A stretch of DNA of 54,540 nt, from NCBI GenBank assembly GCA_036383255.1, contig DASVOS010000016.1, positions 1 through 54,540 on the forward strand. The letters run 5' to 3'. The DNA comes from Gammaproteobacteria bacterium (GTDB lineage Bacteria; Pseudomonadota; Gammaproteobacteria; Natronospirales; REEB76). Numbering within the stretch: the stretch's first letter is position 1; every line of letters starts with the position of its first letter. The translations under genes were made by a program, and so were the position numbers. This document shows, in pieces, positions 19,950 to 48,575 of this stretch. Under the pieces are notes generated by a model. It saw nothing but the letters and a program-made list of their open reading frames with translations, searched no databases and was not told where the DNA came from.

Positions 19950-20025
19950 GCCGGCGTAGCTCAGTTGGTAGAGCATCTGATTTGTAATCAGGTGGTCGGG
20001 GGTTCGATTCCCTCCGCCGGCACCA
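19950..20025 (+). tRNA. tRNA-Thr (anticodon UGU)
   Basis: 76 nt including encoded CCA. The acceptor gccggcg pairs with cgccggc. The anticodon stem tctga/tcagg encloses loop tttgtaa, giving anticodon TGT (threonine). T-arm ggttcgattcc. In E. coli this tRNA is the first of the Thr-Tyr-Gly-Thr-tufB cluster; here its partners lie 34 kb away. An AT-rich insert begins about 18 nt after its 3' end. Confidence 0.97.
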
Positions 20026-20043
20026 ATTTCAGTCACTATCTAA

Positions 20044-21591
20044 ATGGTCGACGAAGAACAGCACAAAAGCATTTTCGATACCTCAAGCTCAGAGGGCGTT
20101 ACCGAGTCAGAACGTCTTCTTATGCGCCTGTGTCGCAAGTCGTTTTTAAGTTTGTGGTCCTATGCAAATCTTCATACCGATGAGGGAATGCACGGCGAAA
20201 ATAAAGCTCCCAAAGAATTTGCAGACGTCCTCGTTGTATTTGGCAACGATGTAATTCTTTTCTCAGATAAACACGTTAATTTTTCTGAAACTGCACCACT
20301 TGAGGTGGCATGGCCGCGATGGCGCAAGCGGGCTATTGATAAATCAGTAAGTCAACTTTACGGGGCATTGCACTGGCTTAAGCGGTTTCCATCCAAAATA
20401 TTCCTGGACCCAAGGTGCGAGCGCCAATTGCCTATCGCACTCCCGAGTGTAGAACTAGCTAACTATCACCTAGTTGCTGTAACTCGAGGGACAGCCGAGG
20501 CATGCGCCAGGAATTTCCCGGGAAGTCTTGGCACACTTCTTATTAACACTGAAGTGGAAAATATAGCTAGCGAAATACCATTTACTACTGGCAAGCCGGC
20601 TGAGGGTAAGCCATTTGTGCATGTATTCGACGAACTGGCTCTCGAAATCGTGCTGAATGAGTTAGATACGATTACTGACTTTGTCAGGTATCTCAATAAG
20701 CGTGAACAATTTTTGTCTGATCCAGAAATGGTAGTTATGGCGCCCGGCGAAGAGCAACTCGTCGCCGCATATATAACCAATATGACGGGCGATAAGCATT
20801 ATTTCGTCTCGAAGTCTGAAGAAGATAAAAAAGCAGATTTAATTGCTTTTGATGAGTCTTATTATGATGGGCTCATCAGCCGCCCTGAATACAAAGATAA
20901 AAAGAGAGCAGAGCTAGATAGCTATACTTGGGATCAGCTCATAGAAAAATTTATTAAGATCGGTGATCCCAAAGCAATCTTTCCTGAAATCAATCAAGAC
21001 ACCCATGATACGGAGCAAGCACTTCGGGTGATGGCTTCCGAAAGCCGATTTCGTCGGCGAGTTTTGGTAGATAACCTCAAAGCAACTTTACATGCGGCGG
21101 CAGAGAAGCCGACTGCGCGCCGGGCGCGGGTTTTTTCTACACGGCAAGAGCCAAATGTTGCGTATATTTTCTTATTCGTACCAAAGCGTGCAGAAGATAC
21201 GTATGAGACCTATCGACATTTAAGAGCTGGTCTATTGATGGCCTATTGTCGCTGCTCCAAGCTGAAATTTCCTGATGCCAATATCTTCATTGGGCTTGGA
21301 TTCGATCATCCGGTGAAAGACTACCCTGGAGTATCGGAGGACTTGGTGGTCCATACCTGGAAGAACTTTGATCAAGAAGCGCGGGCAGAGGCTGAAAATA
21401 TTAGAAATGAACTCGGAATATTAGGTGATGAGCTTACGTACTATTCTGGGCGTGCGACAGAATTTCCAAATACGAGTAGCTTAGATGAATTTCTCCAAAG
21501 GGAAAGGACGACTAAAGCCAAATCGTTAAAAGCTAAACAAAAGCGCAAACGCAAAGAGGCGAAGAGGTCGCGGCGACGCAATCGTAAATGA
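20044..21591 (+). CDS. Unknown 515-aa protein in AT-rich island, possible nuclease-like fold
   Basis: 515 aa, soluble, with a strongly basic C-terminal tail (KQKRKRKEAKRSRRRNRK). The N-terminal part contains 'KEFADVLVVFGNDVILFSDKHV' followed by 'WRKRAIDKSVSQLYGALHWLKRFP'. This alternation of strand, acidic residue, strand and Lys recalls NERD/PD-(D/E)xK-like nucleases, but the exact E-x-K signature is not met, so this is only a suggestion. The middle holds 'FVHVFDELALEIVLNELDTITDFVRYLNKRE'. Base composition and codon use are far more AT-rich than the neighbours, indicating transfer. It begins 18 nt after tRNA-Thr and converges on another orphan gene. A defence or mobile-cargo role is inference. 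Confidence 0.7.
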   Translation: MVDEEQHKSIFDTSSSEGVTESERLLMRLCRKSFLSLWSYANLHTDEGMHGENKAPKEFADVLVVFGNDVILFSDKHVNFSETAPLEVAWPRWRKRAIDKSVSQLYGALHWLKRFPSKIFLDPRCERQLPIALPSVELANYHLVAVTRGTAEACARNFPGSLGTLLINTEVENIASEIPFTTGKPAEGKPFVHVFDELALEIVLNELDTITDFVRYLNKREQFLSDPEMVVMAPGEEQLVAAYITNMTGDKHYFVSKSEEDKKADLIAFDESYYDGLISRPEYKDKKRAELDSYTWDQLIEKFIKIGDPKAIFPEINQDTHDTEQALRVMASESRFRRRVLVDNLKATLHAAAEKPTARRARVFSTRQEPNVAYIFLFVPKRAEDTYETYRHLRAGLLMAYCRCSKLKFPDANIFIGLGFDHPVKDYPGVSEDLVVHTWKNFDQEARAEAENIRNELGILGDELTYYSGRATEFPNTSSLDEFLQRERTTKAKSLKAKQKRKRKEAKRSRRRNRK

Positions 21592-21603
21592 GTGGCAATC
21601 GGC

Positions 21604-21646
21604 ATAGGCCGCCTAATAGCATCTTACTGGATTATTAGGCCTATTT
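21604..21646 (+). terminator. Terminator between the convergent island genes
   Basis: ataggccgcctaata...ttattaggcctat forms a long imperfect stem followed by a T-run on the plus strand. The hairpin overlaps the last codons of the minus-strand gene, so it may serve both directions. Confidence 0.7.
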
Positions 21647-22442
21647 TTTCTGCCGCGTGATAGAGACTGGTTAATAGCTTATCTCCATTCGCCAGAAATG
21701 CGGTCGTGTCGGCAATCGTTCTGAGAAAAGAACGCAATTTTGTGGTGTTTGGTTTCTTGGATTTAAGTTCCTCTACGCATTCACTTGTTACTGACAAAGC
21801 TTCTTGTTTTGGTGTCTCAGGCATGTTGCTTGAGTTTATGGCTTGGGCAAACTCTTCCAATATAGCTTTAAGTCCAGCAAGATTCTCTGCGTTGTAGGTA
21901 ACATTGGCGGTGGCATAAGGAGCTTGGATAACCACAAGATTTCCTTGCCCCACCGAATAAGTGTTTCCCTGTGCAGCCGCACCATTCCGAGTACTAACGC
22001 GCAGACCATCAGTATATAAGTCTATTTCTGCACTATAGATACCCAGTAATCCTCCTTCATTAATGGTGGTACTTCCCGCGATGCCGCCTGCTAATCCACC
22101 ATCTGACAGGCGTACGTGGTAAATCCTGTTGGCTTCGCCAGCTATTCCATTTAAATGGAGGCGCATTTGTTCTTTTAAGTCGCTCTCAATTCCGTCATAC
22201 CATTGAACCTGAAGTGTCGTTAGAACACGTTTAAAAGTGTTCCATACAAATTGTGCTTGTTCTTCCAGTGTTGATCTACAGGCTTGGTCCAAGAGCACTA
22301 CCATAGCGCCTGATCCAAAGGCTCCCTTAGCCGAAAGTTCATGTATCACAGCAGTACAGCGCTGGTTCATAGCAGCGGAGTATGCAGATTGCTGAGCCTG
22401 CACAATTTGGTCAATCCGACTAACAAGCGCCTGGTCGAGCAT
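21624..22442 (-). CDS. Unknown 272-aa island protein
   Basis: 272 aa with no signal peptide or membrane segment. The N-terminal third is helical (MLDQALVSRIDQIVQAQQSAYSAAM...). The centre is Gly/Ala- and strand-rich (LSDGGLAGGIAGSTTINEGGLLGIYSAEIDLYTDGLRV, NTYSVGQGNLVVIQAPYATANVTYN). The C-terminus is helical again (LKAILEEFAQAINS...LRTIADTTAFLANGDKLL). The layout helix / glycine-rich beta / helix is unusual and I do not recognise it. It is AT-rich like its convergent partner and shares a terminator with it. Shine-Dalgarno (gggaga) about 10 nt upstream. Together they form the island between tRNA-Thr and the nadC region. Confidence 0.7.
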   Translation of the reverse strand: MLDQALVSRIDQIVQAQQSAYSAAMNQRCTAVIHELSAKGAFGSGAMVVLLDQACRSTLEEQAQFVWNTFKRVLTTLQVQWYDGIESDLKEQMRLHLNGIAGEANRIYHVRLSDGGLAGGIAGSTTINEGGLLGIYSAEIDLYTDGLRVSTRNGAAAQGNTYSVGQGNLVVIQAPYATANVTYNAENLAGLKAILEEFAQAINSSNMPETPKQEALSVTSECVEELKSKKPNTTKLRSFLRTIADTTAFLANGDKLLTSLYHAAEKIGLIIQ

Positions 22443-22513
22443 GGCGGTTTTCTCTCCCTTACTCGAATATACGCTTATGCTCTAAGAACACACAATAAGA
22501 AGGGAGACATCAA

Positions 22514-22708
22514 TTACTTCGTGCTTGCGGCCGGCGACGGTGCTGTAGTCGCGGCCGGAGCAGTCCCCGCCGCCTGCTGGAACCAACCTTCGGTGATGCT
22601 AAAAGACTTGTCGTAGAGGTCTTTGGCGCCTGCCGGATTGTCGAGATGTCCCACCTTGTGGTTCTTGCAAGCCAGCGTCTTCTTGGTGAACTGCTGCAGG
22701 GAGGCCGC
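22514..22708 (-). pseudogene. Truncated C-terminal copy of the gene at 23657-24238
   Basis: The minus-strand frame encodes 'LQQFTKKTLACKNHKVGH...NPAGAKDLYDKSFSITEGWFQQAAGT', about 85 percent identical to the end of the full-length protein encoded at 23657-24238. The first ~130 residues are missing: homology stops at about 22708, just before the nadC start codon at 22725. It ends with its own Ala/Pro-rich tail. DNA identity to the full copy is lower (roughly 80 percent by eye), so the duplication is not recent. Confidence 0.85.
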
Positions 22709-22724
22709 ATGATAAACTTCGCGA

Positions 22725-23576
22725 ATGTTGCAGCTTCCATCCGACCTCGCCCAGCAGGTCACGACTGCCCTGGCTGAGGACATCGGTGGCGGTGACATCA
22801 CCGCTCAACTGGTCCCCGCCGCACAGCGGGTCACGGGTAAGGTCATCACCCGTGAGGAGGCGACCTTATGCGGCCGCCCTTGGGTGACTGAGGTATTCCG
22901 TCAGCTGGATCCGGCCGTCCGATTGACCTGGCATGCCGACGACGGCGACCGCGTCACTGCGGATCAGACCCTGTTTGAGATCACGGGCCTTGCCCGGCCC
23001 GTCCTCACGGGCGAGCGGACCGCGCTTAACTTCCTCCAGCTCCTTTCCGCGACGGCGACCGCCACTCGCCGCTATGTGGATGCGATCGCGGGAACCCGCT
23101 GCGCGGTCTGGGATACGCGAAAGACGCTCCCAGGACTGCGGACGGCGCAGAAATACGCGGTTTTGTGCGGCGGCGGCCAGAACTACCGCATCGGGCTCTT
23201 CGACCAGGTGCTGATCAAGGAAAACCACATCGCCGCAGCCGGCTCCCTGACGGCCGCGGTGGAAGCAGCCCACCGCGCAGCCGGTGCGCGCAAAGTCAAG
23301 GTGGATGTGGAAGTGGAGACGATGGAGGAGTTCGAGGAGGCGCTGCGCGCAGGGCCGGACATCATCATGCTCGACGAGTTCAGCCTGGCCGACATGAGAG
23401 CCGCGGTGGCGCTGAACGACTCCAAGGGCCATCGGGTCATGATCGAAGCATCGGGCAGCGTGACGCTCGAGAATGTCCGCAGCGTCGCGGAGACCGGCGT
23501 CGACTACATCTCGATCGGCGGCATCACCAAGCACGTCCGCGCTGTGGACCTGTCGATGCGGCTGGCATTTGAATGA
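22725..23576 (+). CDS. nadC: Nicotinate-nucleotide pyrophosphorylase (quinolinate phosphoribosyltransferase)
   Basis: 283 aa. It converts quinolinate and PRPP to nicotinate mononucleotide in NAD synthesis. Key motifs are 'ALAEDIGGGDITAQLVP', 'GERTALNFLQLLSATATATRRYVDAIAGT', 'WDTRKTLPGLRTAQKYAVLCGGGQNYRIGLFDQVLIKENHI' (Arg/Lys/His substrate site) and 'IEASGSVTLENVRSVAETGVDYISIGGITK'. The ATG at 22725 has no clear Shine-Dalgarno; a better-looking ATG at 22709 is out of frame and gives only a short peptide. nadA and nadB are not nearby. It is flanked on both sides by copies of one gene family in the opposite orientation and ends in a strong terminator. Confidence 0.94.
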   Translation: MLQLPSDLAQQVTTALAEDIGGGDITAQLVPAAQRVTGKVITREEATLCGRPWVTEVFRQLDPAVRLTWHADDGDRVTADQTLFEITGLARPVLTGERTALNFLQLLSATATATRRYVDAIAGTRCAVWDTRKTLPGLRTAQKYAVLCGGGQNYRIGLFDQVLIKENHIAAAGSLTAAVEAAHRAAGARKVKVDVEVETMEEFEEALRAGPDIIMLDEFSLADMRAAVALNDSKGHRVMIEASGSVTLENVRSVAETGVDYISIGGITKHVRAVDLSMRLAFE

Positions 23577-23598
23577 TCGGGGACAGATCACGGCTGAT

Positions 23599-23630
23599 AA
23601 AAAAGGCCGCTCATTGAGCGGCCTTTTTTA
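23599..23630. terminator. Bidirectional terminator after nadC
   Basis: An A6 run, stem ggccgctc / gagcggcc with loop att, then a T6 run. The flanking A and T runs make it work on both strands, serving nadC and the convergent gene at 23657. Confidence 0.93.
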
Positions 23631-23656
23631 TAGAAACGATTGGGGACGGGAGCCGA

Positions 23657-24238
23657 TTACTCTCCGGGCTGCGGCGTCGCTGCCGTCGTCGCCGGCGCCG
23701 GCTGAGTCCCCGCCGCCTGCTGGAACCATCCCTCGGTCACGCTGAAAGACTTGTCATAGAGATCCTTCGCGCCAGCCGGATTGTCGAGGTGCGATACCTT
23801 GTGAGTCTTGCAAACCAGCGTCTTCTTGGTGAACTCCTGCAGGGCATCCTCGAGCCCCTTGTCATGCTGGGTCGGGGGCTCGGAATAGAGGCTCACGTGG
23901 TAGTCGTCCGGCTGGTCGGCGAAGGCCTTGAAGCTGATCTGGCGGCGGGCGCTGTCCATTCCCACGATGTCCATCTTCATCCAGCTGAAATCGGGGGTGA
24001 GCTTCTTCCCGGCGGCAACCTTGTCCAGGACGCGGAAGCCTTGGGCGGTCATGAACTGCTGGATGGCTTGGTTGGAAGGGGTCTTGCCCTTGCAGTCGAA
24101 ACTGAAAGCCAGGTCCGCGCCGAAGACGCTCGGCCTGCTGTCGGCGTCCTCAGGCGTCGTATCCGGACGGACTATGATCAGGATCAGTCCGATCACGGCG
24201 AACAGCGTGATGAATCCGGGCACTATCCACTTCTTCAT
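23657..24238 (-). CDS. Membrane-anchored periplasmic protein of unknown function
   Basis: 193 aa. One N-terminal hydrophobic helix (MKKWIVPGFITLFAVIGLILIIV) acts as anchor or uncleaved signal. A globular domain (about 40-165) includes 'GFRVLDKVAAGKKLTPDFSWMKMDIVGMDSARRQISFKAFADQPDDYHVSLYSEPP' and 'KTHKVSHLDNPAGAKDLYDKSFSVTEGWFQQAAGT'. The tail is Ala/Thr/Pro-rich. It is the intact member of a family whose truncated copy lies on the other side of nadC. Shine-Dalgarno-like cgaggt before the ATG. I do not recognise the family. Confidence 0.75.
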   Translation of the reverse strand: MKKWIVPGFITLFAVIGLILIIVRPDTTPEDADSRPSVFGADLAFSFDCKGKTPSNQAIQQFMTAQGFRVLDKVAAGKKLTPDFSWMKMDIVGMDSARRQISFKAFADQPDDYHVSLYSEPPTQHDKGLEDALQEFTKKTLVCKTHKVSHLDNPAGAKDLYDKSFSVTEGWFQQAAGTQPAPATTAATPQPGE

Positions 24239-24422
24239 CTTCGACCTCGTGGGGGCGTTGAGCCTGTGTGGCGCGGTATTCTCGCATTCTGCGAGCGATA
24301 AGGGGATAGACGGTGCCTGCTTCTCAGGCCTGGCGAACCCAGGTCCTCGTGCGCGGTGTTAGTATCTGGGTGGGGAAAGAAGCCGTCTTGGGATGGACTG
24401 TTTGGCGACTAAGGGGAATCTG

Positions 24423-25622
24423 GTGGCGCATGCGTGGCCGCTATGCCTGGCGGCGCTGCTCGCCTGCCTGTGTGTCTCTGCTGCACCCGCTTCCCATGAA
24501 GCTTTTCGACAAGATGCCTATATATGGCAGCGCCATTGGACGCCCGCGCTTGATAGTGCCGTGCAAAGGTCCGCCGATGTTGTGGACGGCTGGCGCGTGC
24601 TTGCGGCAGAGACCGATGGTCTGGGTCACCTGAGGCCGGTGCAGGCGAATTGGGAGCTGTTGGCCGTGAGCGACCGGCCTGTCACCCCCGTGATTCGCAT
24701 AGATGGCCAGCTGCAAGACTGGAGCATCGATCGCTTAGTTGCGGATATCGGGTCTGTGGTTTCCGAGTTGCGCGCCACCCATGTCCCCGTAGCGGGTCTG
24801 GAGATCGATCACGACTGCGCCACGGCGCGTCTGCCTAAGTACGCCGCTTTCATGAAGGCTTTGCGCCGGGCACTGCCCGATGTCCATCTTTCCATGACGG
24901 CACTGCCGGCCTGGATGGAGTCCTCACAACTCGATGCCCTATTGGCACAGGCGGACGAGGTCGTGCTGCAAGTACACGCTGTGCGAGATCCACGCAGCGG
25001 CCTGTTCGACACCGGCATCGCGCGGGACTGGATCGAGCGCTTCTCGGTCCGCATCCATGGCCCGTTCCGTGTGGCCTTGCCTGCCTACGGCGTGCGGGTC
25101 ACCTGGGGCGAGCGCGGCGAGATCGCCGTGGTGGAAAGCGAGATGCCGCGCTTCAGTGCTGGCACCGATGCTGCCGAGCTCATGGCCTCGCCGAGCGAAG
25201 TCGCCGCGTTGCTTTCCATGCTCCGGAAGGAGCACCTCGCGCACTTGGCCGGTGTGGTCTGGTTTCGCCTGCCTACGGATGAGGACAGCCGCGCCTGGAA
25301 CCTCGCCACTTTGCGAGCAGTCATGCAGGGCATGCTACCTGAAGCCGTGGTCTCAGTGGAGTTGCGAGAGAGCAGCACTCCTGGCATGAGCGACGTGTTG
25401 CTGGGCAATCCTGGCCCCACTGATGCGGAACTTCCGCAGCGCATCGCGCTTCCGGTGAACTGCGGGGAGGCGGACGGTATCAACGGATATTCCCTGGAGC
25501 GGGTAGGTTTGGGCCTCGCGCTCACGCGACTCCAGTCCGGTATCTTGCATGGTCATCATCAGCGCCTAATTGGTTGGGCGCGCTGTACTCAAACCAAGGT
25601 AGCTTTCGATGCGCATCCCTAA
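24423..25622 (+). CDS. DUF3142-family exported protein
   Basis: 399 aa from a GTG at 24423 with a strong Shine-Dalgarno (aagggga). An ATG at 24393 lacks one. The signal sequence AWPLCLAALLACLC may include a lipobox (LLAC). The body matches the DUF3142 pattern as I remember it: 'IRIDGQLQDWSIDRLVADIGSVVSELR', 'VAGLEIDHDCATARLPKYAAFMKALRRALP', 'LSMTALPAWMESSQLDALLAQADEVVLQVH'. The strand-helix rhythm and the acidic D-x-D suggest a TIM-barrel, glycoside-hydrolase-like fold. It overlaps the next gene by 14 nt, so the two products probably act together in the envelope. Function unknown. Confidence 0.8.
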   Translation: MAHAWPLCLAALLACLCVSAAPASHEAFRQDAYIWQRHWTPALDSAVQRSADVVDGWRVLAAETDGLGHLRPVQANWELLAVSDRPVTPVIRIDGQLQDWSIDRLVADIGSVVSELRATHVPVAGLEIDHDCATARLPKYAAFMKALRRALPDVHLSMTALPAWMESSQLDALLAQADEVVLQVHAVRDPRSGLFDTGIARDWIERFSVRIHGPFRVALPAYGVRVTWGERGEIAVVESEMPRFSAGTDAAELMASPSEVAALLSMLRKEHLAHLAGVVWFRLPTDEDSRAWNLATLRAVMQGMLPEAVVSVELRESSTPGMSDVLLGNPGPTDAELPQRIALPVNCGEADGINGYSLERVGLGLALTRLQSGILHGHHQRLIGWARCTQTKVAFDAHP

Positions 25623-27942
25623 GCGTTGGTATATCGCTGTCTCTGCCGTTGCTTTCATCGGTGGGGTTCTCGCTTGCGGCCCCGATTTCCCCTGGCAGTT
25701 GCTGGATGATCGCAACGTGACTTTGCGTTCGACGCCGGCGAATGACTTCCAGGACGAGATGCCCGCATTCCTGCCCAAGCCGGCGGACCAGCTCAAACCC
25801 AATGAAGAATATCTCTTGGAGAGACATTCGTATTACGACGAGAACTGGAATGGGTCGTTGAAGGCGGAGCGCGCCGCAGAGGAAGAGCGGGAACTAAAGA
25901 CGGAAGCCGAAATAGCTTCGATACGTGTCATGCGCTCTCAGGACAGTGATGACAAGGCCTATGCGGCAGGCGCCGGTCTGCCCGAGGCAGTGCGGCTCTA
26001 TACTGCAGGCGCCGTGGCGTATCACGGAAATGCCATGACCCAGGCCGCTCGGCGCTTCGAGGCAGTGCTGGCGCTACCGGCGGACCAGCGCAAGTCGCGC
26101 GCCACTTGGGCGGCCTTCATGCTTGGACGCATCCATGCTGCGGCTGGTGAGGAGGCTGATGCTGCCAGGTACTTCACCATGACCCGCGAATTCGCATTGC
26201 AGGGTGCTCCAGACCCGTTGGGGTTGGCTGTAGCCAGCTATAACGAGGAGGCCGGGATGCACTACCGGTTGGCAGAAGCACTGTTGCATGACGGTGTGCT
26301 TCCTGCAGACCAGGCAGAGATTTTCGGTCGCCACATGACGGTGGCTGGCAAGCTCTATGGTGAGGCTGAGGCCCGTGGTTCCCGCTGGAGTTTCAATTCC
26401 CTGGTCTGGGTCGCAGGCGAGGTGATGGCGGAACCAGTACGGGTGGAAGCCGCCGCCCGTGACCCATTCATGCAGCATCTCTTGGTGGCCTATACCCTGG
26501 GCCGCATACCCGATGCGTCCACCGAACGTAGCGATTACTACTTCGATTACTTCATCGACGGGCACCACCCTTTGGATGCGGCCAGCGGCAAGCCCAACAT
26601 GATCCTTGAGCCATCGGTCGCGGTACTGGTGGCTGTACTAGAGAAACATCCCGCATCACGGCAGGGATGGGATGGTCTTGGGGCAATCATGTACCGGGCG
26701 GGCCGCTATGACCTTGCGGCGAAGCTTGTTGCAGATTCCTCTACGCCCATGGCTGCATGGCTCAAGGCCAAACTCGCCATCCAGAAAGGTGATCTCGCCA
26801 AGGCTGCGGAGTTCTATTCCCAGGCGGTGGAATCCTTCAAGTCCACCAAGGCCGGAATCAGCGACTACAATGCCGTATTACTCCAGGGGGAACAGGCTAC
26901 GCTCGCACTTGCCCGAGGCGAATATCTGGATGCGCTGGATAAACTTTACGCTCAGGGCGATAAGTACTGGGGTGATATTGCCTATGTTGCAGAGCGGATC
27001 CTCACTACCGATGAACTGAAGCAGTTCGTGGACACGCGCGGTGCCACGGTCCAGTCGGATCACGTGGTATCCGACGAAGACTACTATGGCATTACCGCGG
27101 GTAGCCGGACCGAGTTGCGCGACCTGCTGGCTAGACGCTTGGTTCGTGATGGACGCTACAACGAGTCTTTAGTCTATTTTCACGGCTCGAAGGAGAGTGG
27201 GTTCGCCGATCCCCAGGTCCGTGACCATGTTACGGCCTACGCGAAAGCATTAGCCATCGCGGAAGGGAAGGAAGATTCGCTCGCGCGAGCCCATGCCTGG
27301 TATGACGCTGGAGTGTTGGCCCGTGAATGGGGCATGGAGATGATGGGCTATGAATCGGCGCCGGATTATTTCTCCGTTCAAGGCTACTACGCCTATGGCT
27401 ATGGCCAGGAAAAGACGGGCGGCTCCTTCGTAACCGATGACGAGAAACGCCGCTTCAGCGCCAGCACAGCTAAGCCTGACTCGCGTTTCCACTACCGTTT
27501 CCTCGCGGTGGATGACCTGCGGAAGGCGGCGGCGCTGGTGCCACCCCGTGGCCAGGCTTATGCAGCCATACTTTGCACCGCCGCCGGCTGGATGTATCAC
27601 ACCCAGGATCAGGCTCCGTTAGGCGACGAGCTGTATAAGCAGTACGTCGCCCACGGTGCTATCGTCGATTTCGCCACCCATTTCGGCAATAGCTGTCCCG
27701 ATCCGGATTTCACCGAGACTGCGGCGGATGTGACTGACAAGGCACATGCGCAAACCGTGGCCTGGATCGCCGCGCGGAAAGCCGCTGGACACCCTGTAAA
27801 TCGGCTCAGCTTCATTCAGCGCATCATGGGCAAGATACGTCGGCATATGGGCTTGGCTCTTCTTGCTGTGCTTGGGCTCATGATCGTACTTGCGGGTGCT
27901 GCTGCAGCAGGGATCTGGCGGTGGCATTCGAAACCACGCTGA
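25609..27942 (+). CDS. Large TPR-type lipoprotein with C-terminal membrane helix
   Basis: 777 aa. Lipoprotein signal (VAFIGGVLACGPDFPW, Cys23). Helical repeats resembling TPR/Sel1 are visible around 125-165 (AVAYHGNAMTQAARRFEAVLALPADQRKSRATWAAFMLGRIHAAAGEEADAARYF) and 345-420 (GLGAIMYRAGRYDLAAKLV..., LAIQKGDLAKAAEFYSQAVESF). A hydrophobic helix near the C-terminus (MGLALLAVLGLMIVLAGAAAAGIW) would add a second membrane contact, which is unusual for a lipoprotein. The start overlaps the DUF3142 gene by 14 nt. Shine-Dalgarno aaggtag. Probably the scaffold partner of the DUF3142 protein. Confidence 0.78.
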   Translation: MRIPKRWYIAVSAVAFIGGVLACGPDFPWQLLDDRNVTLRSTPANDFQDEMPAFLPKPADQLKPNEEYLLERHSYYDENWNGSLKAERAAEEERELKTEAEIASIRVMRSQDSDDKAYAAGAGLPEAVRLYTAGAVAYHGNAMTQAARRFEAVLALPADQRKSRATWAAFMLGRIHAAAGEEADAARYFTMTREFALQGAPDPLGLAVASYNEEAGMHYRLAEALLHDGVLPADQAEIFGRHMTVAGKLYGEAEARGSRWSFNSLVWVAGEVMAEPVRVEAAARDPFMQHLLVAYTLGRIPDASTERSDYYFDYFIDGHHPLDAASGKPNMILEPSVAVLVAVLEKHPASRQGWDGLGAIMYRAGRYDLAAKLVADSSTPMAAWLKAKLAIQKGDLAKAAEFYSQAVESFKSTKAGISDYNAVLLQGEQATLALARGEYLDALDKLYAQGDKYWGDIAYVAERILTTDELKQFVDTRGATVQSDHVVSDEDYYGITAGSRTELRDLLARRLVRDGRYNESLVYFHGSKESGFADPQVRDHVTAYAKALAIAEGKEDSLARAHAWYDAGVLAREWGMEMMGYESAPDYFSVQGYYAYGYGQEKTGGSFVTDDEKRRFSASTAKPDSRFHYRFLAVDDLRKAAALVPPRGQAYAAILCTAAGWMYHTQDQAPLGDELYKQYVAHGAIVDFATHFGNSCPDPDFTETAADVTDKAHAQTVAWIAARKAAGHPVNRLSFIQRIMGKIRRHMGLALLAVLGLMIVLAGAAAAGIWRWHSKPR

Positions 27943-28076
27943 TACCGAGAGCTCAATCCAGTTAAATTGTCGGCATGTAGTTATGGGACATTGGGAAAAG
28001 ATGCTGGATCGGCACGGGTTTTGGTGAAGGTTGTTAATATCAAGAGACCGCAGGATCCCTTTAAGAGGATGACCTT

Positions 28077-28667
28077 ATGAAACGCTATTCCCTGGTCCTG
28101 TTGCTGACGTTCCTGGCCTGCGGCTGCGCCCATGCGCCCGCCCCACTGAATGACATCCCGCTCGTATGGGCGCCCACGTCCACCGTCGCCGAGATCGGCG
28201 CGATCGACACCACCGGCATGACAGACGTGAAGATCCAGATGGGCGGCTTCACGGACGCGCGCAAGGACACGGCTCTCATCGGGGCGAACCGCGAAGACGG
28301 GCAAGACAGGCCCGTTACCACCCGGGATGCCGTCGCCGGTTACGTCACGGACCACTTGCGCGAGACGCTGCAGAAGACCGGCCTCGACGTCGTGGATTCG
28401 GGCGGCACCGCGGTCCTGAGCGGCGAGGTCAAGGATTTCTTCGTGACCGAAGTGAACACCTACCACGCGGAGATCACCTTGAGCGTCACGCTGCGCAATG
28501 CCGCGGGCAAGACCCTGTGGTCCGGCGTCGTCGGCGGCAGTTCCACCACCTTCGGCCATTCCTATAGCGCGGCGAACTACTACAAGGTGCTGTCCAACGC
28601 GCTGGTGGATGCCACGCACACTCTGCTGGCGAACCCTGGCTTCCACGATGCCTTAGCGGCGAAGTGA
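28077..28667 (+). CDS. YajG-like lipoprotein
   Basis: 196 aa. The signal peptide ends in a lipobox (TFLACGC; Cys15 or Cys17 is modified). The mature part has the pattern of YajG-type outer-membrane lipoproteins: an N-terminal strand 'KIQMGGFTDARKD', then 'TRDAVAGYVTDHLRETLQKTGLDVVDSGGTAVLSGEVKDFFV' and 'HAEITLSVTLRNAAGKTLWSGVVGGSSTTFG'. A Shine-Dalgarno (gagga) lies before the ATG. It stands alone after the TPR gene. Family function is poorly known. Confidence 0.75.
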   Translation: MKRYSLVLLLTFLACGCAHAPAPLNDIPLVWAPTSTVAEIGAIDTTGMTDVKIQMGGFTDARKDTALIGANREDGQDRPVTTRDAVAGYVTDHLRETLQKTGLDVVDSGGTAVLSGEVKDFFVTEVNTYHAEITLSVTLRNAAGKTLWSGVVGGSSTTFGHSYSAANYYKVLSNALVDATHTLLANPGFHDALAAK

Positions 28668-28739
28668 TCGCCGTTGCAAGGGAGAAAATAACCGGGATCG
28701 CTTCAGGCCACGCTTTACGAAGCGGCGCAATCCCCTCCC

Positions 28740-28757
28740 TTGTCACAAAAGAGTCAT
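28740..28757 (+). promoter_or_regulatory. Weak candidate Pho box
   Basis: ttgtcac-aaaa-gagtcat follows the 7-4-7 architecture of PhoB sites, but no -10 lies 8-11 bp downstream and the next gene starts 155 nt away. A hairpin-like C/G-rich inverted repeat follows at about 28766-28796. Confidence 0.25.
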
Positions 28758-28858
28758 ACAGTTGCCCCCCTCCTTTGAGACGGAAGGGGAGGGGCTATCT
28801 TCCGCACCCGTAACCAGCCAGCATCCCTCTGTGAGAGTACCGGTCGTGCGACAGGTTT

Positions 28859-28905
28859 GGCCGGTGTTAAACCGGGTTTGGCGGAGCGGCCCCCCAAGCT
28901 AGACT
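28859..28905 (+). promoter_or_regulatory. Candidate promoter with leaderless start for the VTT gene
   Basis: tagact at 28900-28905 ends exactly 6 nt before the ATG at 28912, which puts +1 on the A of the start codon. The upstream block ggccggtgttaaaccgg sits in the same position relative to the -10 as the activator-like sites at 33428, 34098 and 36459, but matches TGTG-N8-CACA only weakly. Confidence 0.45.
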
Positions 28906-28911
28906 CGGTGC

Positions 28912-29622
28912 ATGTCCCGTGTAAGTGGCCGTACCGAGTCATGGGGCCCCCGGATACGGCTGGGCCTCATCATCGCCTCGGTCGTGGTGGCTCTGGTCCT
29001 GTTTGCCGGAAGCAAGCACTGGCTATCCATAGATGCGCTGCGCAATCACCGCGATGCGCTCCTGCACCTCGTGGAAGGGCGCTATTGGCAGGTCGCGTTC
29101 ATCATGGCCGGGCTCACCATCACGCTGGTGGGGATGAGCATGCCGGTGACGCCCATCCTGATGCTCCTCTCGGGCCTGTTCTTCAATCGCTGGATCGGCA
29201 GCACGTTGATGCTGGTCTCCCTCGCCCTGGGTGCGACGCTCGCGCTGTTGGTGGTGCGCTACCTGGCCCAGGATTTCGTGCGTGCCCGGGTCCAGGACTT
29301 CCCGCGCACCCGGCGCCTGCTGAGTAGCTTCGGGCAACATCAGTCCAGCTACCTCTTGTTCCTGCGCTTCGCGCCGGGGATCCCGTTCTGGCTCACCAAC
29401 ATCCTGTATGGCTTGACTGAGATCAGCGCGCTACGCTTCCTGCTGCTGACCCTGGTGGGCCTCATCCCCAGCGTGGTCATCTACTGCAACATCGGCGCGA
29501 ACCTGGCGCATGTGAAATCGGTCCATGAACTCCTGTCTCCGGGCATCATCGGAGGCCTGGCCCTGCTGGCCGCCCTGTGCCTCCTGCCCGTGGCCGTCCA
29601 GCGCTGGCGGCATCGCGCCTGA
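28912..29622 (+). CDS. VTT-domain (TVP38/TMEM64/DedA-like) membrane protein
   Basis: 236 aa with about six hydrophobic segments. The VTT (SNARE-associated) signature is present: 'GMSMPVTPILMLLSGLFFNRWIGSTLMLVSLALGATLALLVVRYLAQDF' and 'FLRFAPGIPFWLTNILYGLTEISALRFLLLTLVGLIPSVVIY'. Relatives in the DedA/VTT group flip or scramble lipids across membranes. No Shine-Dalgarno is present, and a -10-like hexamer ends 6 nt before the ATG, consistent with a leaderless mRNA. Confidence 0.88.
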   Translation: MSRVSGRTESWGPRIRLGLIIASVVVALVLFAGSKHWLSIDALRNHRDALLHLVEGRYWQVAFIMAGLTITLVGMSMPVTPILMLLSGLFFNRWIGSTLMLVSLALGATLALLVVRYLAQDFVRARVQDFPRTRRLLSSFGQHQSSYLLFLRFAPGIPFWLTNILYGLTEISALRFLLLTLVGLIPSVVIYCNIGANLAHVKSVHELLSPGIIGGLALLAALCLLPVAVQRWRHRA

Positions 29623-29671
29623 ATCAGGCCTATATGTAGAATAGGACGGCATGTAACGGGGGGTCTGAGCC

Positions 29672-30343
29672 ATGCGTCTTGCTTTCCATCTCGCCATCCT
29701 CGCCACCTGCCTGCTGACACCTGCCATCGCGGCGGCAGATGACTCTGGCTGGTATGTGGGTTACAGCGGCGCACAGACCCATGCATCCCAAGCTTCCTAT
29801 TTCAAGGGCTTCTTCCCTAGGGGGATCGTGCCCTCAGACCCCTCTGTCTCCTCAAGCCTGGATTCCTCGGGCAAGCGCCTCGAAGGAGGCTACTGGTTTA
29901 CGCCGAATATAGGCGTGCAAGCGGCCATCACGGATCTGGGCCGGTTTTCATTCAAGGCGACGTATGATTCCGGAGGGTTTGTGGGATGCGTCGGCGCGCA
30001 GTGTGGTCCCGCCACCATCACCGACTCGCGGATCGAGCCGACCGCGGAGACCCTTGCCCTGACCGGAAGATGGGCGCTTTCCGATGAATTCGACTTGATT
30101 GGCCGTGCCGGGGTCTTGTGGGGCAGCACCACGTATGAAGATCAAAGCATCGGCGTCCCTAACGGGCACCCGCGCATAATCGAGGCAAGTCGAGGAGGAA
30201 CATTGGGCGTCAGTTTGGGGTGGAACTTCACGGATCACTCCGAGCTGCTGCTGGGATGGGACGAGTACACTGGTCTTGGCGGTAACCGCTTCGCGTCATT
30301 CAACGTGTCGGCTGTCTCGATAGGCCTGCAATACCACTTCTGA
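29672..30343 (+). CDS. Outer-membrane beta-barrel protein (8-strand, OmpA/OmpW-like)
   Basis: 223 aa with a signal peptide (MRLAFHLAILATCLLTPAIAAA), then alternating amphipathic strands: 'GWYVGYSGAQTHAS', 'GKRLEGGYWFTPNIGVQAAITDLG', 'LALTGRWALSDEFDLIGRAGVLWG', 'GTLGVSLGWNFTDHSELLLGWDEY', ending 'AVSIGLQYHF'. The terminal Phe is the Bam-complex signature. A Cys pair in 'GCVGAQCGP' may form a loop disulfide. It probably plays a structural or small-molecule role in the outer membrane. The lipid-transporter-like gene upstream ends 49 nt earlier. Confidence 0.82.
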   Translation: MRLAFHLAILATCLLTPAIAAADDSGWYVGYSGAQTHASQASYFKGFFPRGIVPSDPSVSSSLDSSGKRLEGGYWFTPNIGVQAAITDLGRFSFKATYDSGGFVGCVGAQCGPATITDSRIEPTAETLALTGRWALSDEFDLIGRAGVLWGSTTYEDQSIGVPNGHPRIIEASRGGTLGVSLGWNFTDHSELLLGWDEYTGLGGNRFASFNVSAVSIGLQYHF

Positions 30344-30368
30344 CGACACACCCGATGGAGCCATAACC

Positions 30369-30806
30369 ATGCGCTTACGCGCTTTAGCAGCCGCCGTCTT
30401 CCTGAGTCTCTTCGCCGTCGCCGCCTTCGCCGCGCCGCCGGGGAAGGACGCCGGCATGCCCTTCAACCTGAAGGCGACCAACCAGGCGTTCCAGAAGAAC
30501 CCCACCGGCGGCATCCAGCAGATGACGGCGAAGGACCCGAACGACAAGGGCCTCATCGCCGCCATCCGCGCGCGCCTGCTGCAGGAAGCAGAGCGCTTCG
30601 GCGATGGCGACTACTCCAGCATCACCAAGGGCGGCGGCAAGCCGATGCCGGGCACCGAGTACCTGCGCGGCATCAAGCACGGCCAGCTCGCCATCACCTA
30701 CCGCGAGGTACCCGCCGGCGCGGCGGTGGATTACGCGGGCCGCGACCCCGCCACCGTGGATGCCATCCACAAGTGGATCGACGCTCAGATCGGTAGCCAC
30801 GACTAG
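30369..30806 (+). CDS. Small periplasmic protein (AIHxWxDAQ family)
   Basis: 145 aa, cleavable signal peptide (MRLRALAAAVFLSLFAVAAFA). The mature part is 'MPFNLKATNQAFQKNPTGGIQQMTAKDP...LIAAIRARLLQEAERFGDGDYSSI' and ends 'DPATVDAIHKWIDAQIGSHD'. I recall this as a conserved family often misannotated as aspartate carbamoyltransferase. It is not that enzyme, lacking its size and motifs. Two His near the C-terminus could bind metal. Function unknown. It follows the beta-barrel gene by 25 nt. Confidence 0.7.
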   Translation: MRLRALAAAVFLSLFAVAAFAAPPGKDAGMPFNLKATNQAFQKNPTGGIQQMTAKDPNDKGLIAAIRARLLQEAERFGDGDYSSITKGGGKPMPGTEYLRGIKHGQLAITYREVPAGAAVDYAGRDPATVDAIHKWIDAQIGSHD

Positions 30807-30912
30807 GCGCGCTGCAACATATCGGGTTCTATCGGCACACCGATGCAATAGCTGCATTCCGCCGCATTGGCGCATAAGCTGATGCGATGCGCATGGAACG
30901 CAGAGCCAGGTC

Positions 30913-32097
30913 ATGAGGATCGCCATCAGCGGCGCCGGCGTCGCGGGGCCCGCGGCAGCGTTCTGGCTGAGCCGCGCGGGCCACGAGGTCACGCTCATCG
31001 AGCGGGCGCCCCAGTTCCGCGCCGGCGGCTACATCGTGGACTTCTGGGGCGTCGGCTACGACGTGGCCGAGCGCATGGGCATCATCGGAAAGGTCCGCGA
31101 CGCGGGCTACCTGGTGCGGGAAGTGCGCCTCGTGGACCGGCAGGGCAGGCGCGTCTCCGGCTTCGACGTGGGTTCCCTGCGCAACGTCACCGGCGACAGG
31201 TTCACGAGCCTGCCGCGCGGCCAGCTGGCGCTCGCCTCTTACCACGCGCTGGGTGACAAGGTGGAAGCGCTGTTCGGCGAGAGCATCGTCTCGGTGCAGG
31301 ACACGGGGCCCGCGTTGCGCCTCAGCTTCGAGAAGCAGTCGCCCCGCGAGTTCGACTTGCTCATCGGCGCCGACGGCCAGCACTCCAACGTGCGCAGACT
31401 GGTGTTCGGTCCCGAGGAGCGCTTCGAGAAGCGCCTCGGCTACTACGTGGCGGCCTTCGAGGCATCCGGCTATGGGCCGCGGGACGAGCTGGTGTACATG
31501 ATGCACTGCATCCCGGGGCGGCAGGTCTCGCGTTTCTCCATGCGCGGCGGCCGCACCATGTTCCTGTTCATCTTCCGCAGCGAATACCTGCGCGGGTCCG
31601 AGCCGCACGACACGGCGGGGTTCAAGTCCACCCTCGAAGGCGTCTTCGCCGACGTGGGCTGGGAGACGCCACAGATCCTCGCCGCCATGCGCGGGGTGGA
31701 CGAGGTCTATTTCGACCGGGTGTCCCAGATCAAGTTGCCCGCCTGGTCCAAGGGCCGCGTGGCGCTGATCGGGGATGCCGCTGCGGCCGTCTCGCTGCTG
31801 GCGGGCGAGGGCACGGGGCTCGGACTCACGGAGGCTTATGTGCTCGCCGGCGCGCTACGGGATGCCGACGGCGATCACGTGCGCGCGTTCCGGCACTACG
31901 AGCAGACGTTGCGCCGCTTCGTCGAGGCGAAGCAGAAGGGCGCGGAGAATTTCGCCTCCACCTTCGCGCCCCGCACGGCCTTCGGCGTCTGGACGCGTGA
32001 CCAGGCGCTGAAGCTCATGGCTGTGCCGGCCCTGGCGCGGGTCTTCCTGTCCTCCGCGCTCAAGGACGACATCACGCTGCCGGACTATCGCGCCTGA
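30913..32097 (+). CDS. FAD-dependent monooxygenase (PHBH/TetX-like)
   Basis: 394 aa group A flavoprotein hydroxylase. The dinucleotide-binding start 'MRIAISGAGVAGPAAAFWLSRAGHEVTLIERAP' has the GxGxxG motif. 'LLIGADGQHSNVRRLVFG' is the DG motif contacting FAD/NADPH, and 'VALIGDAAAAVSLLAGEGTGLGLTEAYVLAGAL' is the GD motif. The length is typical. Such enzymes hydroxylate aromatic compounds or inactivate antibiotics (TetX); the substrate cannot be told here. Modest Shine-Dalgarno (aggt) before the ATG. Monocistronic. Confidence 0.88.
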   Translation: MRIAISGAGVAGPAAAFWLSRAGHEVTLIERAPQFRAGGYIVDFWGVGYDVAERMGIIGKVRDAGYLVREVRLVDRQGRRVSGFDVGSLRNVTGDRFTSLPRGQLALASYHALGDKVEALFGESIVSVQDTGPALRLSFEKQSPREFDLLIGADGQHSNVRRLVFGPEERFEKRLGYYVAAFEASGYGPRDELVYMMHCIPGRQVSRFSMRGGRTMFLFIFRSEYLRGSEPHDTAGFKSTLEGVFADVGWETPQILAAMRGVDEVYFDRVSQIKLPAWSKGRVALIGDAAAAVSLLAGEGTGLGLTEAYVLAGALRDADGDHVRAFRHYEQTLRRFVEAKQKGAENFASTFAPRTAFGVWTRDQALKLMAVPALARVFLSSALKDDITLPDYRA

Positions 32098-32124
32098 TCC
32101 GGGCGATCCGGACCGTCGGGTTGG

Positions 32125-32757
32125 TTACGGCCTCCCGCCCATCCTGTCGCCGCCCAGGGGCCGGCCCGGCGGCTCGAACAGCATGCTCGGGGTGGAAGCT
32201 TCCTCCGGCGAGTCGCAGACCTGCTGCAGGAGCTGGATCTTGAGGTCCAGCAGCTGCACGCCGAGGTCGTCCAGGTCCAGGTCGCAATCCTTGGCCCGGG
32301 GGAACATGGTGCCTTCCTCTTCCTTCACGTGGTGCTTGGTGTATTCCTCCATCACCTTCACGTGGGCCTGGCAGTCGATGTCGCTCTCGGCGTCCTCCAC
32401 TTCGGCGATGAGCTTCTTCAGGCTCTCGTGCTCCAGGCGCGCTTCCGGCACGATCAGCTCGTCCTTCTCCTTGGTCCGGGCCGTGCCCGCGAGCGCGTTC
32501 TTCACCGCCGGATAGAAGAGCTCCTCTTCCATGCGCATGTGCAGGCTGAGCGCCAGGCACAGCTTGGAGCTGATGAGCTTCCGTTCCGTGATGGTCTTGG
32601 CCTTGGAGTGTTTCTCGTAGAGGTCCGTGGCTTCCTGGTGGTCGGCCTTCAGCAGCGCGATCGCGTCCTTGGGCTTGTCTCTCATCGCCTGGGCGGCCTC
32701 GAGCATCTTGGTGGCGACTTCGGAGCGCGGGGCGCTGTTCTGTGTCTCTTCAGCCAT
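32125..32757 (-). CDS. Hemerythrin-domain protein (paralogue 1)
   Basis: 210 aa from the ATG at 32757 with a strong Shine-Dalgarno (gaggagg). Hemerythrin HHE-type ligands are visible: His40 (ALLKADHQEAT), His73 and nearby Glu77 (SLHMRMEEELFYP), His110 (ARLEHESLKKLI) and His142/143 (YTKHHVKEEEGTMFP). A di-iron, O2/NO-sensing or storage four-helix bundle is expected. The C-terminal tail is Pro/Gly-rich. Close in sequence and layout to the protein at 36547. Divergent from a DoxX gene. Confidence 0.9.
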   Translation of the reverse strand: MAEETQNSAPRSEVATKMLEAAQAMRDKPKDAIALLKADHQEATDLYEKHSKAKTITERKLISSKLCLALSLHMRMEEELFYPAVKNALAGTARTKEKDELIVPEARLEHESLKKLIAEVEDAESDIDCQAHVKVMEEYTKHHVKEEEGTMFPRAKDCDLDLDDLGVQLLDLKIQLLQQVCDSPEEASTPSMLFEPPGRPLGGDRMGGRP

Positions 32758-32972
32758 GTGGGTGTTCCTCCTCGTTTGGGCGGTCAGTGCAGATGCGGGA
32801 CCATAGAGGACGCCGGCGCCGTTGGCCGTGAGGTGCACCGCAGAATAACGCTGCCCGCAAGATGACCTCACTATTGCTGCGTTCGCAGAACGTGTAGGTC
32901 GGCCCGAGGTCGTTCCTGTAATAAATGTCCCGCGCGGTCGCTCCTGGGTTGGTGCACCACTCGGAGAGATGC

Positions 32973-33422
32973 ATGAAGGACTTTTCCCGCTGGGCTCCCG
33001 TCCCGTTGCGGCTGATCGTGGGCTACGGTTTCATGGCCCACGGCGTCGCCAAGCTGCTGCGCGGCCCTGAGCACTTCACGGCCATCCTGCAGGCCATCGG
33101 CGTGCCCGATCCGCAGCTCATGGCCTGGCTCACCATCGGTATCGAGGTCGCCGGGGGCTTGGCCGTGATGCTGGGCGCCTTCGTCACGCTGGCCAGCCTG
33201 CCCATGGCGGTGGTGCTGCTGGTGGCGATGTTCACCGTGCACCTGCCCAACGGCTTCAGTTCCATCAAGCTCCTGGCGGTGACACCCGGCGGCGCGCAGT
33301 TCGGGCAACCTGGCTACGAGACGGACCTGCTCTACCTCGCCTGTCTCGCGGCGCTCGTCCTCGGCGGTCCCGGACCGCTGGCCCTGGACGTGGCCTTGGC
33401 CAAGAGGAGACGAGGCGGCTGA
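32973..33422 (+). CDS. DoxX-family membrane protein
   Basis: 149 aa with four hydrophobic helices: 'PVPLRLIVGYGFMAHGVAKLL' (the DoxX signature with GxxF..HG..K), 'WLTIGIEVAGGLAVMLGAFVTLASLPMAVVLLVAMFTVHL', and a C-terminal 'LLYLACLAALVLGGPGPLALDVAL'. DoxX proteins form redox or thiol-stress membrane complexes in other bacteria. The ATG at 32973 follows a Shine-Dalgarno (ggagag); the frame is open slightly upstream. Divergent from hemerythrin 1 across a 215-nt region. Confidence 0.85.
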   Translation: MKDFSRWAPVPLRLIVGYGFMAHGVAKLLRGPEHFTAILQAIGVPDPQLMAWLTIGIEVAGGLAVMLGAFVTLASLPMAVVLLVAMFTVHLPNGFSSIKLLAVTPGGAQFGQPGYETDLLYLACLAALVLGGPGPLALDVALAKRRRGG

Positions 33423-33427
33423 CCGCG

Positions 33428-33474
33428 GGACTGTGCCCGGGCGCATGGACGGCTGTGCGCCCGTCCCGTAGATT
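33428..33474 (+). promoter_or_regulatory. Class II CRP/FNR-type promoter candidate (DUF924 gene)
   Basis: tgtg-cccgggcg-catg (33432-33447) is centred 29.5 bp before the start of the -10 tagatt (33469-33474). That corresponds to -41.5 relative to +1. The predicted +1 at 33481 leaves only 3 nt before the ATG. Confidence 0.5.
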
Positions 33475-33483
33475 CTGCGGTGC

Positions 33484-34056
33484 ATGGAACGCTACCGCGA
33501 GATACTCGATTTCTGGTTCGGGCCCGGCGCGGGCCCCAAGTTCTGGTTCGGCGCCGATGCCGCCACGGACCGCGTGGTGCGCGAGCGGTTCGCAGGCGAC
33601 CTCGAGGATGCCGTCGCCGGCAAGCTGGATCCCTGGGAAGATTCGCCCGAGAGTGCGCTGGCGCTGGTGGTGTTGCTCGATCAGTTCTCGATGCAGCTCC
33701 ACCGCAAGCAGCGGCGGGGCTACGAGCTGTCCGCCCTGGCGCTGCCCGTGGCCGAACGGGCGATCATCAAAGGCTTCGACCGGCAGTTGGATTGCGCCCG
33801 GCGCGGCTTCCTCTACATGCCCTTCATGCACGCCGAGGACCTGACGCATCAGGAGCGCGGGGTGCAGCTCTTCTGCACGCTCGTGCAGGAATGCGGCCCC
33901 GGCGACCAGGAAGCCAACACGGGTTTCCTGAAGTACGCCCGGCTGCACCGTGACATCGTCGCCCGCTATGGCCGCTTCCCGGGACGCAACGCCGCCTACG
34001 GGCGTGAGAGCACGTATGCCGAGCGGGTGTATCTCGATGAGGGAGGGTACTTCTAG
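33484..34056 (+). CDS. DUF924-family protein
   Basis: 190 aa, soluble, alpha-helical (TPR-like in family structures as I recall). Family signatures are 'ILDFWFG' at the N-terminus, 'SALALVVLLDQFSMQLHRK', 'RGFLYMPFMHAEDLTHQERGVQLF' and the C-terminal 'GRFPGRNAAYGRESTYAERVYLDEGGYF'. In most homologues the second motif reads LLDQFPRN; here it is LLDQFSMQ, a local change. No Shine-Dalgarno. The -10-like tagatt ends 9 nt before the ATG, so the transcript is nearly leaderless. Function unknown. Confidence 0.87.
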   Translation: MERYREILDFWFGPGAGPKFWFGADAATDRVVRERFAGDLEDAVAGKLDPWEDSPESALALVVLLDQFSMQLHRKQRRGYELSALALPVAERAIIKGFDRQLDCARRGFLYMPFMHAEDLTHQERGVQLFCTLVQECGPGDQEANTGFLKYARLHRDIVARYGRFPGRNAAYGRESTYAERVYLDEGGYF

Positions 34057-34097
34057 GCGCGCCCGTGCAGCATCCGTGACCTGGCTCAGGTGCTTCG

Positions 34098-34144
34098 GGT
34101 TTGTGGTGGCCCGCACAGATTCACGCGGTGCCCGCCCGTAGATT
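34098..34144 (+). promoter_or_regulatory. Class II CRP/FNR-type promoter candidate (small basic protein)
   Basis: tgtg (34102-34105), 8 bp, caca (34114-34117): the exact half-site spacing of CRP sites. The centre at 34109.5 is 29.5 bp before tagatt (34139-34144), the class II position. It shares long identity with the site at 36459. Confidence 0.6.
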
Positions 34145-34182
34145 TTGTGGCATCACGCAAGGAAGCTACGAGGAACGCCGCC

Positions 34183-34365
34183 ATGCCGAAGGATGATGTA
34201 ATCGGGCGCAAGGTCCGCGCCGTCAAGGATTGGATGTCGAAGGTCACGCACCAGGTCACTGCATCCGGCAACACCGACGCCCGCAGTCCCAACGGCGAGC
34301 GCCGCATCCGGGACGTGGGCCGCCTGCCGGAACGCCGCGGTACTGACCGGCGCGACATCGTCTGA
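34183..34365 (+). CDS. Small basic protein (paralogue of 37163-37351)
   Basis: 60 aa: MPKDDVIGRKVRAVKDWM... then 'GERRIRDVGRLPERRGTDRRDIV'. Good Shine-Dalgarno (gaggaa) 7 nt before the ATG. The amphipathic start 'RKVRAVKDWMSKVTHQV' and the Arg-rich second half closely mirror the 62-aa protein after the second hemerythrin gene. A short helical, nucleic-acid- or membrane-binding peptide is possible. Too short to classify; duplication and a conserved promoter argue that it is real. Confidence 0.7.
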   Translation: MPKDDVIGRKVRAVKDWMSKVTHQVTASGNTDARSPNGERRIRDVGRLPERRGTDRRDIV

Positions 34366-34377
34366 GGCCTTGCAGCC

Positions 34378-34680
34378 TCAGAGCAGGTCCGGGTGGGGGA
34401 AGTCCTGGTAGCCCTTGTAGATCGTGAGGGCGGACATGCTCGCCTGGACCGGGCGCGGGGCACGCTGCGTGCGCGGCTTGAACGGCTTACCCGTGTGGCC
34501 GGCCTTGGCCTTGTTGGTGACCAGCCGCCCGTTCTGCATCATTTCGCCGAGATAGCGTCCCGTGGGACAGAATATCTCGTCGCCCACGCGGTGGCCTACG
34601 TGCCGGCCGCTGTAAGTCCAAAGGTCGTTGCCCATCCAGTAGCCGAAGCACTGGCCCGACCAGGTCCATATCCAATCCAT
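34378..34680 (-). CDS. Four-repeat beta-hairpin (4-fold beta-flower-like) protein 1
   Basis: 100 aa. Four short repeats of about 14-16 residues: 'WTWSGQCFGYWMGND', 'LWTYSGRHVGHRVGDE', 'IFCPTGRYLGEMMQNG', 'RLVTNKAKAGHTGKP'. Each has a strand-[S/T]G-strand layout and the first three a conserved G, as in the 4-fold beta-flower fold. The C-terminal 35 residues are basic and unstructured. A second protein with the same architecture is at 41043-41447. The upstream region is AT-rich with ctattag repeated twice (18 bp apart). Function unknown. Confidence 0.65.
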   Translation of the reverse strand: MDWIWTWSGQCFGYWMGNDLWTYSGRHVGHRVGDEIFCPTGRYLGEMMQNGRLVTNKAKAGHTGKPFKPRTQRAPRPVQASMSALTIYKGYQDFPHPDLL

Positions 34681-34871
34681 CTTCGCGATCCTTCAGCCAC
34701 GGAAGGGTGCTTTTCGCTCTCGTTATGGCGGGCATTCTAATAGATATTTAGTGTACTAATAGAATCGTACGACATTTTTTTAGCGAGCGGGTGGGCCGCG
34801 CCCCGCGGGGACATCTGGGCTCACCAACGAGGGATCGAGCTTGCCGTCTTGGATCAGCTTTATCAGCAGCT

Positions 34872-34901
34872 GCGGGCCGCGGACAGGCGTCCGCGGCCCG
34901 C
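34872..34901 (-). terminator. Strong GC hairpin downstream of KGG-like gene 1
   Basis: A 13-bp perfect stem (gcgggccgcggac / gtccgcggcccgc) with loop aggc lies 23 nt after the stop. No T-run follows on the minus strand, so it could stabilise the 3' end rather than terminate. The left arm recurs at 35312-35325 as part of the ~440-bp tandem duplication. Confidence 0.6.
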
Positions 34902-34924
34902 GTCCTCACACACTGATGTGCAGC

Positions 34925-35302: not shown

Positions 35303-35330
35303 CATCCCAAATGCGGGCCGCGGACAAACG

Positions 35331-35359: not shown

Positions 35360-35382
35360 CGTGCGCACGAGCGCGGTGAGGC

Positions 35383-48574: not shown

Positions 48575-48575
48575 T

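Follow-up and report, generated by a model that had tools for sequence, protein, structure and literature searches.

Shedu (SduA, DUF4263) is a system in which a single protein carries a PD-(D/E)XK nuclease, and EcSduA is described in a 2026 review as a DNA-end-sensing nicking nuclease (PMC12904381). The protein analysed here, which we call P1, is encoded beside a tRNA-Thr gene in a gammaproteobacterium and resembles SduA in being a single protein with a predicted PD-(D/E)XK nuclease, with a structural match over ~160 residues (Z 6.6). However, the SduA nuclease follows an N-terminal clamp (matched residues 225–408), whereas that of P1 is N-terminal (residues 18–219 of 515), and no match to the DUF4263 Pfam model (E 0.1) or to PADLOC Shedu was found in 70 P1 homologues. 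A second resemblance is to the NERD domain (PF08378), which gave sub-threshold matches in 2 of the 70 homologues (best E 0.057) and in a P1 homologue from a Klebsiella aerogenes plasmid (E 0.15). These scores are far under the Pfam gathering score, P1 itself does not match, and NERD has an ExK motif where P1 has an acid directly before the lysine, plus a large extra C-terminal half. The best structural match to the P1 nuclease domain is the small subunit of R.BspD6I (PDB 2p14; Z 8.7, rmsd 3.6 over 147 residues), which is only 12% identical to it and is a 186-residue restriction-enzyme subunit that has neither tail nor C-terminal half. The link to SEC-C-tailed proteins is one of naming: PGAP calls the P1 homologue of an IncN plasmid 'YecA family' or 'SEC-C metal-binding domain-containing protein', but the Pfam basis for these names is a tail motif of ~20 residues, and the remainder is the P1 family.

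P1 lies in an AT-rich stretch of the window, by which we mean the whole 54.5-kb piece of DNA analysed here. GC content falls from ~0.60 to 0.42–0.47 across 20.0–22.5 kb and then returns to 0.62–0.66. The same drop is seen at third codon positions, with a GC3 of 0.43 for P1 and 0.40 for its neighbour P2, compared with 0.81 for nadC, 0.77 for a gene of 403 aa and 0.71–0.84 for most genes flanking the pair. An earlier note, made from the sequence alone, had described an AT-rich stretch that starts just after tRNA-Thr and ends near 22.5 kb, with convergent ORFs of 515 aa (plus strand) and 272 aa (minus strand); GC and GC3 agree with these limits, and the ORF coordinates proved exact (Table 1). It had also reported neither an integrase nor a repeat of the tRNA 3' end at the right edge, and we likewise found no integrase ORF within the AT-rich stretch, including between tRNA-Thr and P1, and a search of the window for another copy of the tRNA 3' end, tolerating as many as three mismatches, found none. 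The right edge carries a truncated gene copy. Between this copy and the intact 193-aa gene, to the right of the AT-rich DNA, lies nadC (22725–23576), a second copy that is ~56% identical to the nadC on another contig of the same genome (C13).

The gap between the 3' end of tRNA-Thr and the start of P1 is 18 nt, and no Shine-Dalgarno-like purine run was seen in it. As this gap is too short for a promoter of its own, P1 would probably be transcribed by read-through from the tRNA promoter, with transcription ending at its own terminator. The hairpin downstream of P1, which reaches into the 3' end of P2, had been taken for a terminator common to both genes. Its U-run serves the plus strand only, so it is the probable terminator of P1 and not a bidirectional one.

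Table 1. Coordinates of the features discussed (positions in the window)
Feature	Position	Strand	Remarks
tRNA-Thr (anticodon TGT)	19950..20025	+	Insertion site; the foreign DNA starts at its 3' end
Stretch between tRNA-Thr and the downstream genes of relatives	20026..50871		~31 kb; the AT-rich pair is its left end
P1, 515 aa, stand-alone PD-(D/E)XK nuclease family protein (predicted)	20044..21591	+	phrog_18195 match, E 1.6e-57
P1 nuclease domain (predicted), residues ~18–219	20095..20700	+	Conserved E23, E58, D61, D75-K76, Q104
P1 C-terminal half, residues ~285–461	20896..21426	+	Conserved D297, R335, R338, R391, R394, D433
P1 basic helical tail, residues ~477–515	21472..21588	+	SEC-C zinc motif instead in ~1 in 6 homologues
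Hairpin (~21611–21640) and U-run	21611..21649	+	-15.6 kcal/mol, z -2.35
P2, 272 aa, rare	21624..22442	-	Helical stretch 176–260 weakly like PADLOC candidate PDC-M14B
Partial gene copy	22532..22701	-	170 bp, 83% identity to 3' part of gene 23657–24238

Neither P1 nor P2 has a homologue in the 55 relatives searched, 11 of which belong to the same family. Six same-family genomes have this tRNA-Thr(TGT) no more than ~1 kb after coaX, and in four of them a tRNA block, Tyr-Gly-Thr(GGT), lies 3.2–5.5 kb past the tRNA. An exported-protein gene and a PstS-like gene (names assigned by sequence motifs) occupy the interval between tRNA-Thr and this block. The window has homologues of these two genes at 50872 and 52539, followed by the tRNA block at 53974, and two genes sampled from the intervening ~31 kb have no clear orthologue in the family. 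The site is empty in relatives. One same-family genome (G002), however, carries a 340-aa integrase-like ORF 97 nt past the same tRNA-Thr, within a 7.4-kb element (L109:1811–9263) whose last 45 bp repeat the 3' half of the tRNA perfectly, and the matching empty site is present in G001 (L112). Both an integrase and a direct repeat of the tRNA 3' end are present at this tRNA in G002, and this makes tRNA-Thr(TGT) an integrase target in this bacterial family. As the window has no tRNA repeat, its own insertion has decayed or came by another route. Absence in relatives, the empty site, the integrase element of G002, GC and GC3 together support the view, already put forward in the earlier note along with the suggestion to examine this tRNA site in relatives, that the segment with P1 and P2 is foreign tRNA-adjacent cargo.

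P1 belongs to a widely distributed family. Homologues were found on at least 237 GTDB genome contigs, in 141 plasmid records and on 22 IMG/VR viral contigs, and the PHROG that P1 matches is annotated as of unknown function. The best 80 of the at least 237 contigs come from Pseudomonadota, Chloroflexota, Bacteroidota, Cyanobacteriota, Planctomycetota and candidate phyla. Per genome P1 is rare, with 5 of 299 genomes of the phylum carrying it. The plasmid homologues are mostly on conjugative plasmids and are common in Klebsiella, Citrobacter, Providencia and E. coli; the closest is from Xanthomonas campestris (50.5%). The homologue of the IncN plasmid (L007:2829–4304), whose annotation apparently derives from its tail, is carried by 21 of the 5426 complete E. 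coli genomes, in every case on a plasmid. The 22 viral contigs, which have tail, portal, replication and CII-like genes nearby, come from an alignment-based scan, earlier single-sequence scans of viral contigs having found none. P1 as a single sequence had no match in phage records, and a Bacillota homologue matches such records via its C-terminal tail only. In the family tree, phyla are mixed in places and largely clustered, which suggests an old spread plus some transfer. The dN/dS ratio was 0.11–0.22 in six close pairs, and the family is under purifying selection.

The AlphaFold2 model of P1, built from 70 homologues, has a pLDDT of 91.9 and a pTM of 0.89. For residues ~18–240, the top of the structural ranking consists almost without exception of PD-(D/E)XK nucleases: besides the R.BspD6I subunit and SduA, these include Upx (Z 7.4), Can2/Cdn1 (~7) and McrC (6.5), although most Z scores are below 8, a range in which common arrangements score too. 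A Foldseek search of P1 against the PDB and viral models gave no match at E<=0.001. The predicted model nonetheless has the PD-(D/E)XK fold, and it bears out both the nuclease-like strand pattern and the basic tail that had been read from the sequence.

The candidate active site has an acidic pair and a hairpin lysine in a variant spacing, with E23, D61 and D75-K76 kept in all or nearly all homologues. E23 is on the first helix, the hairpin opens with D61 and closes with S74-D75-K76, and Q104 belongs to the helix that follows; further on, H193 and also D212 are conserved. Ser74, not an acid, occupies the acid place of the canonical (D/E)xK motif, and D/E75 adjoins the lysine. TnsA is a precedent for a non-acid at that position. 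Eight residues (E23, E58, D61, Q104, H193, D297, R335 and R338) are invariant in the 70 homologues and position 75 is D or E in all of them, but the genome-contig homologues were fetched with degenerate patterns over E58-D61 and FSDK, so that part of the invariance in these segments comes from the selection itself. In a set of 17 homologous proteins or fragments collected with no such pre-selection, E23, E58, D61 and D75 are kept wherever covered and K76 in all but two. In two divergent homologues (L158 and L159), R replaces K76, F replaces S74 and T replaces Q104; these are perhaps an inactive or altered branch.

No fold was recognised for the C-terminal half. We considered that it could be a degenerate second nuclease domain and rejected this, as profiles of the two halves showed no similarity. 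P1 and many of its homologues have a basic tail, whereas SEC-C takes its place in 11 of 70 and some have no tail. PADLOC matches were found in as many homologues as bear SEC-C, and these weak matches probably reflect the SEC-C tail. P1 itself gave nothing beyond chance in the Pfam, NCBIfam and PADLOC models (no family of the 2023 PADLOC-DB) and no PDB match by sequence profile. The family is large and diverse and, judged by these profile searches, has no Pfam domain outside the tail, no PADLOC entry and no solved sequence relative. We found no description of it in the part of the literature on SEC-C/PD-(D/E)XK or NERD single-gene defence that we covered, and an earlier description may exist.

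No gene family neighbours P1 homologues in more than four of ~85 loci, which suggests that P1 would work alone or with host factors. Among the 149 neighbouring genes were five phage integrases and four rve transposases. A control set of 145 genes, drawn from 19 genomes, had no integrase family with two or more members among the top 25 families listed, although TniB had two. Immediate neighbours also include AlpA, PemK, ResIII and methylases. By a rough estimate, tRNA genes do not occur at distances of up to 6 kb from P1 homologues clearly more often than by chance, so we used only cases with an integrase in between. An integrase precedes P1 at a tmRNA (L075), in Thiobacillus (L008, L009) and in Azospirillum (L087), and at a tRNA-Phe the integrase and the P1 homologue are convergent (L074). 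These arrangements mirror the tRNA-P1 order of the window.

Other neighbours are genes of defence systems or of mutagenesis. A Hachiman-like DUF1837 protein and helicase (L163), EcoRII (L007) and type I (L003) restriction-modification genes, SIR2 and ThiF/multiubiquitin genes (L005) and a TrlF ATPase (L162) lie near P1 homologues; this list comes from reading plasmid annotations by eye, with no matched control set, and such genes are usual on plasmids and islands. In three xanthomonad loci, the gene immediately upstream of the P1 homologue encodes a large protein (~1235–1346 aa) which, where intact, has a LexA-type DNA-binding domain at its N terminus (L016:1785–5819, L020:1778–5818, L002:4111–7818). 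In candidate-phylum bacteria, divergent LexA-HTH proteins of 474–494 aa have an intergenic region in common with the P1 homologue (L058:790–2214, L083:4461–5945). P1 homologues are also found beside dnaE2/imuB mutagenesis cassettes in three unrelated bacteria (L020:7598–13313, L084:5064–9842, L087:7622–12555).

With moderate confidence, we regard P1 as a stand-alone mobile PD-(D/E)XK nuclease that most likely defends, on its own and in a restriction-like manner, against incoming phage or plasmid nucleic acid, a reading that rests on the predicted fold, the distribution and the neighbouring genes. The candidate residues E23, D61 and D75-K76, with Q104, would bind metal and cut DNA or RNA. The conserved Arg-rich C-terminal half may sense either the target or the cell's state and restrain the nuclease, and the interchangeable basic or SEC-C tail would tether the protein to nucleic acid or ribosomes, with defence as the probable biological role. 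More tentatively, the whole family may be a widespread single-protein immunity system, with an N-terminal nuclease under a conserved sensor half and exchangeable basic or SEC-C tethering tails, moved across many phyla by prophages, plasmids and tRNA-integrating islands.

The LexA-type and dnaE2 neighbourhoods could instead point to a nuclease that serves DNA repair, recombination or SOS mutagenesis and that mobile elements carry for their own upkeep. P1 homologues lie 95–891 bp from dnaE2, which imuB adjoins, in three loci, LexA-type proteins are upstream or divergent in five, and resolvases as well as RecB-type exonucleases are known with PD-(D/E)XK folds. However, these associations concern fewer than 10% of loci, imu cassettes may be no more than places where insertions occur, and the sporadic distribution of P1 is unlike that of a housekeeping gene. 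SOS control was discarded, as LexA boxes were not above expectation upstream of 82 P1 homologues. We consider this explanation unlikely.

The tails suggest another possibility, namely a translation-linked nuclease that cuts RNA in a stress or abortive-infection response while docked on ribosomes. The C-terminal metal-binding (SEC-C) domain of SecA interacts with ribosomes (PMC6620043), and SEC-C is present in 11 of 70 P1 homologues, with basic tails in many others. Yet such tails can also bind DNA or merely stabilise the protein, some homologues have none, and the structural neighbours are mostly DNA nucleases, so that we hold this to be quite unlikely. That P1 serves the element itself, in transfer, exclusion of rival plasmids or counter-defence, would fit its frequency on conjugative plasmids and in prophages, but it is tied to no one transfer system or phage type and is also chromosomal, beside integrases only; we give this very little credence.

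A two-gene system of P1 and P2, such as a nuclease plus a regulator, had been raised in the earlier note and is extremely improbable: the two genes are on one AT-rich segment with the same GC3 and P2 weakly matches the C-terminal part of a PADLOC candidate, but they are convergent and ~80 P1 loci have neither P2 nor any conserved partner nearby, which speaks against a partnership. The match of P2 to PDC-M14B covers positions 171–255 of 267 only (E 7.8e-8) and is not full-length, and the same model also matches in B. subtilis, C. glutamicum and M. acetivorans. P2 homologues amount to one divergent match (E 2.6e-4) among 398 genomes of the phylum and one partial match (30%) in plasmids, with none in phages. 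The glycine-rich beta core ascribed to P2 is visible in its sequence, but was modelled poorly (pLDDT ~30 there, 58.8 for the whole single-sequence model), and a fold search with this model was meaningless. P2 is best called an unrelated second cargo gene of unexplained role.

The locus also shows that, within this bacterial family, tRNA-Thr(TGT) is a hot spot for integration. If P1 is indeed a defence nuclease, it would represent a simple one-gene system on conjugative plasmids, IncN among them, and in prophages, and could influence susceptibility to phages as well as the spread of plasmids. One would then have to ask what the conserved second half of P1 detects. On clinical plasmids, this family has so far been labelled by its tail motif only.
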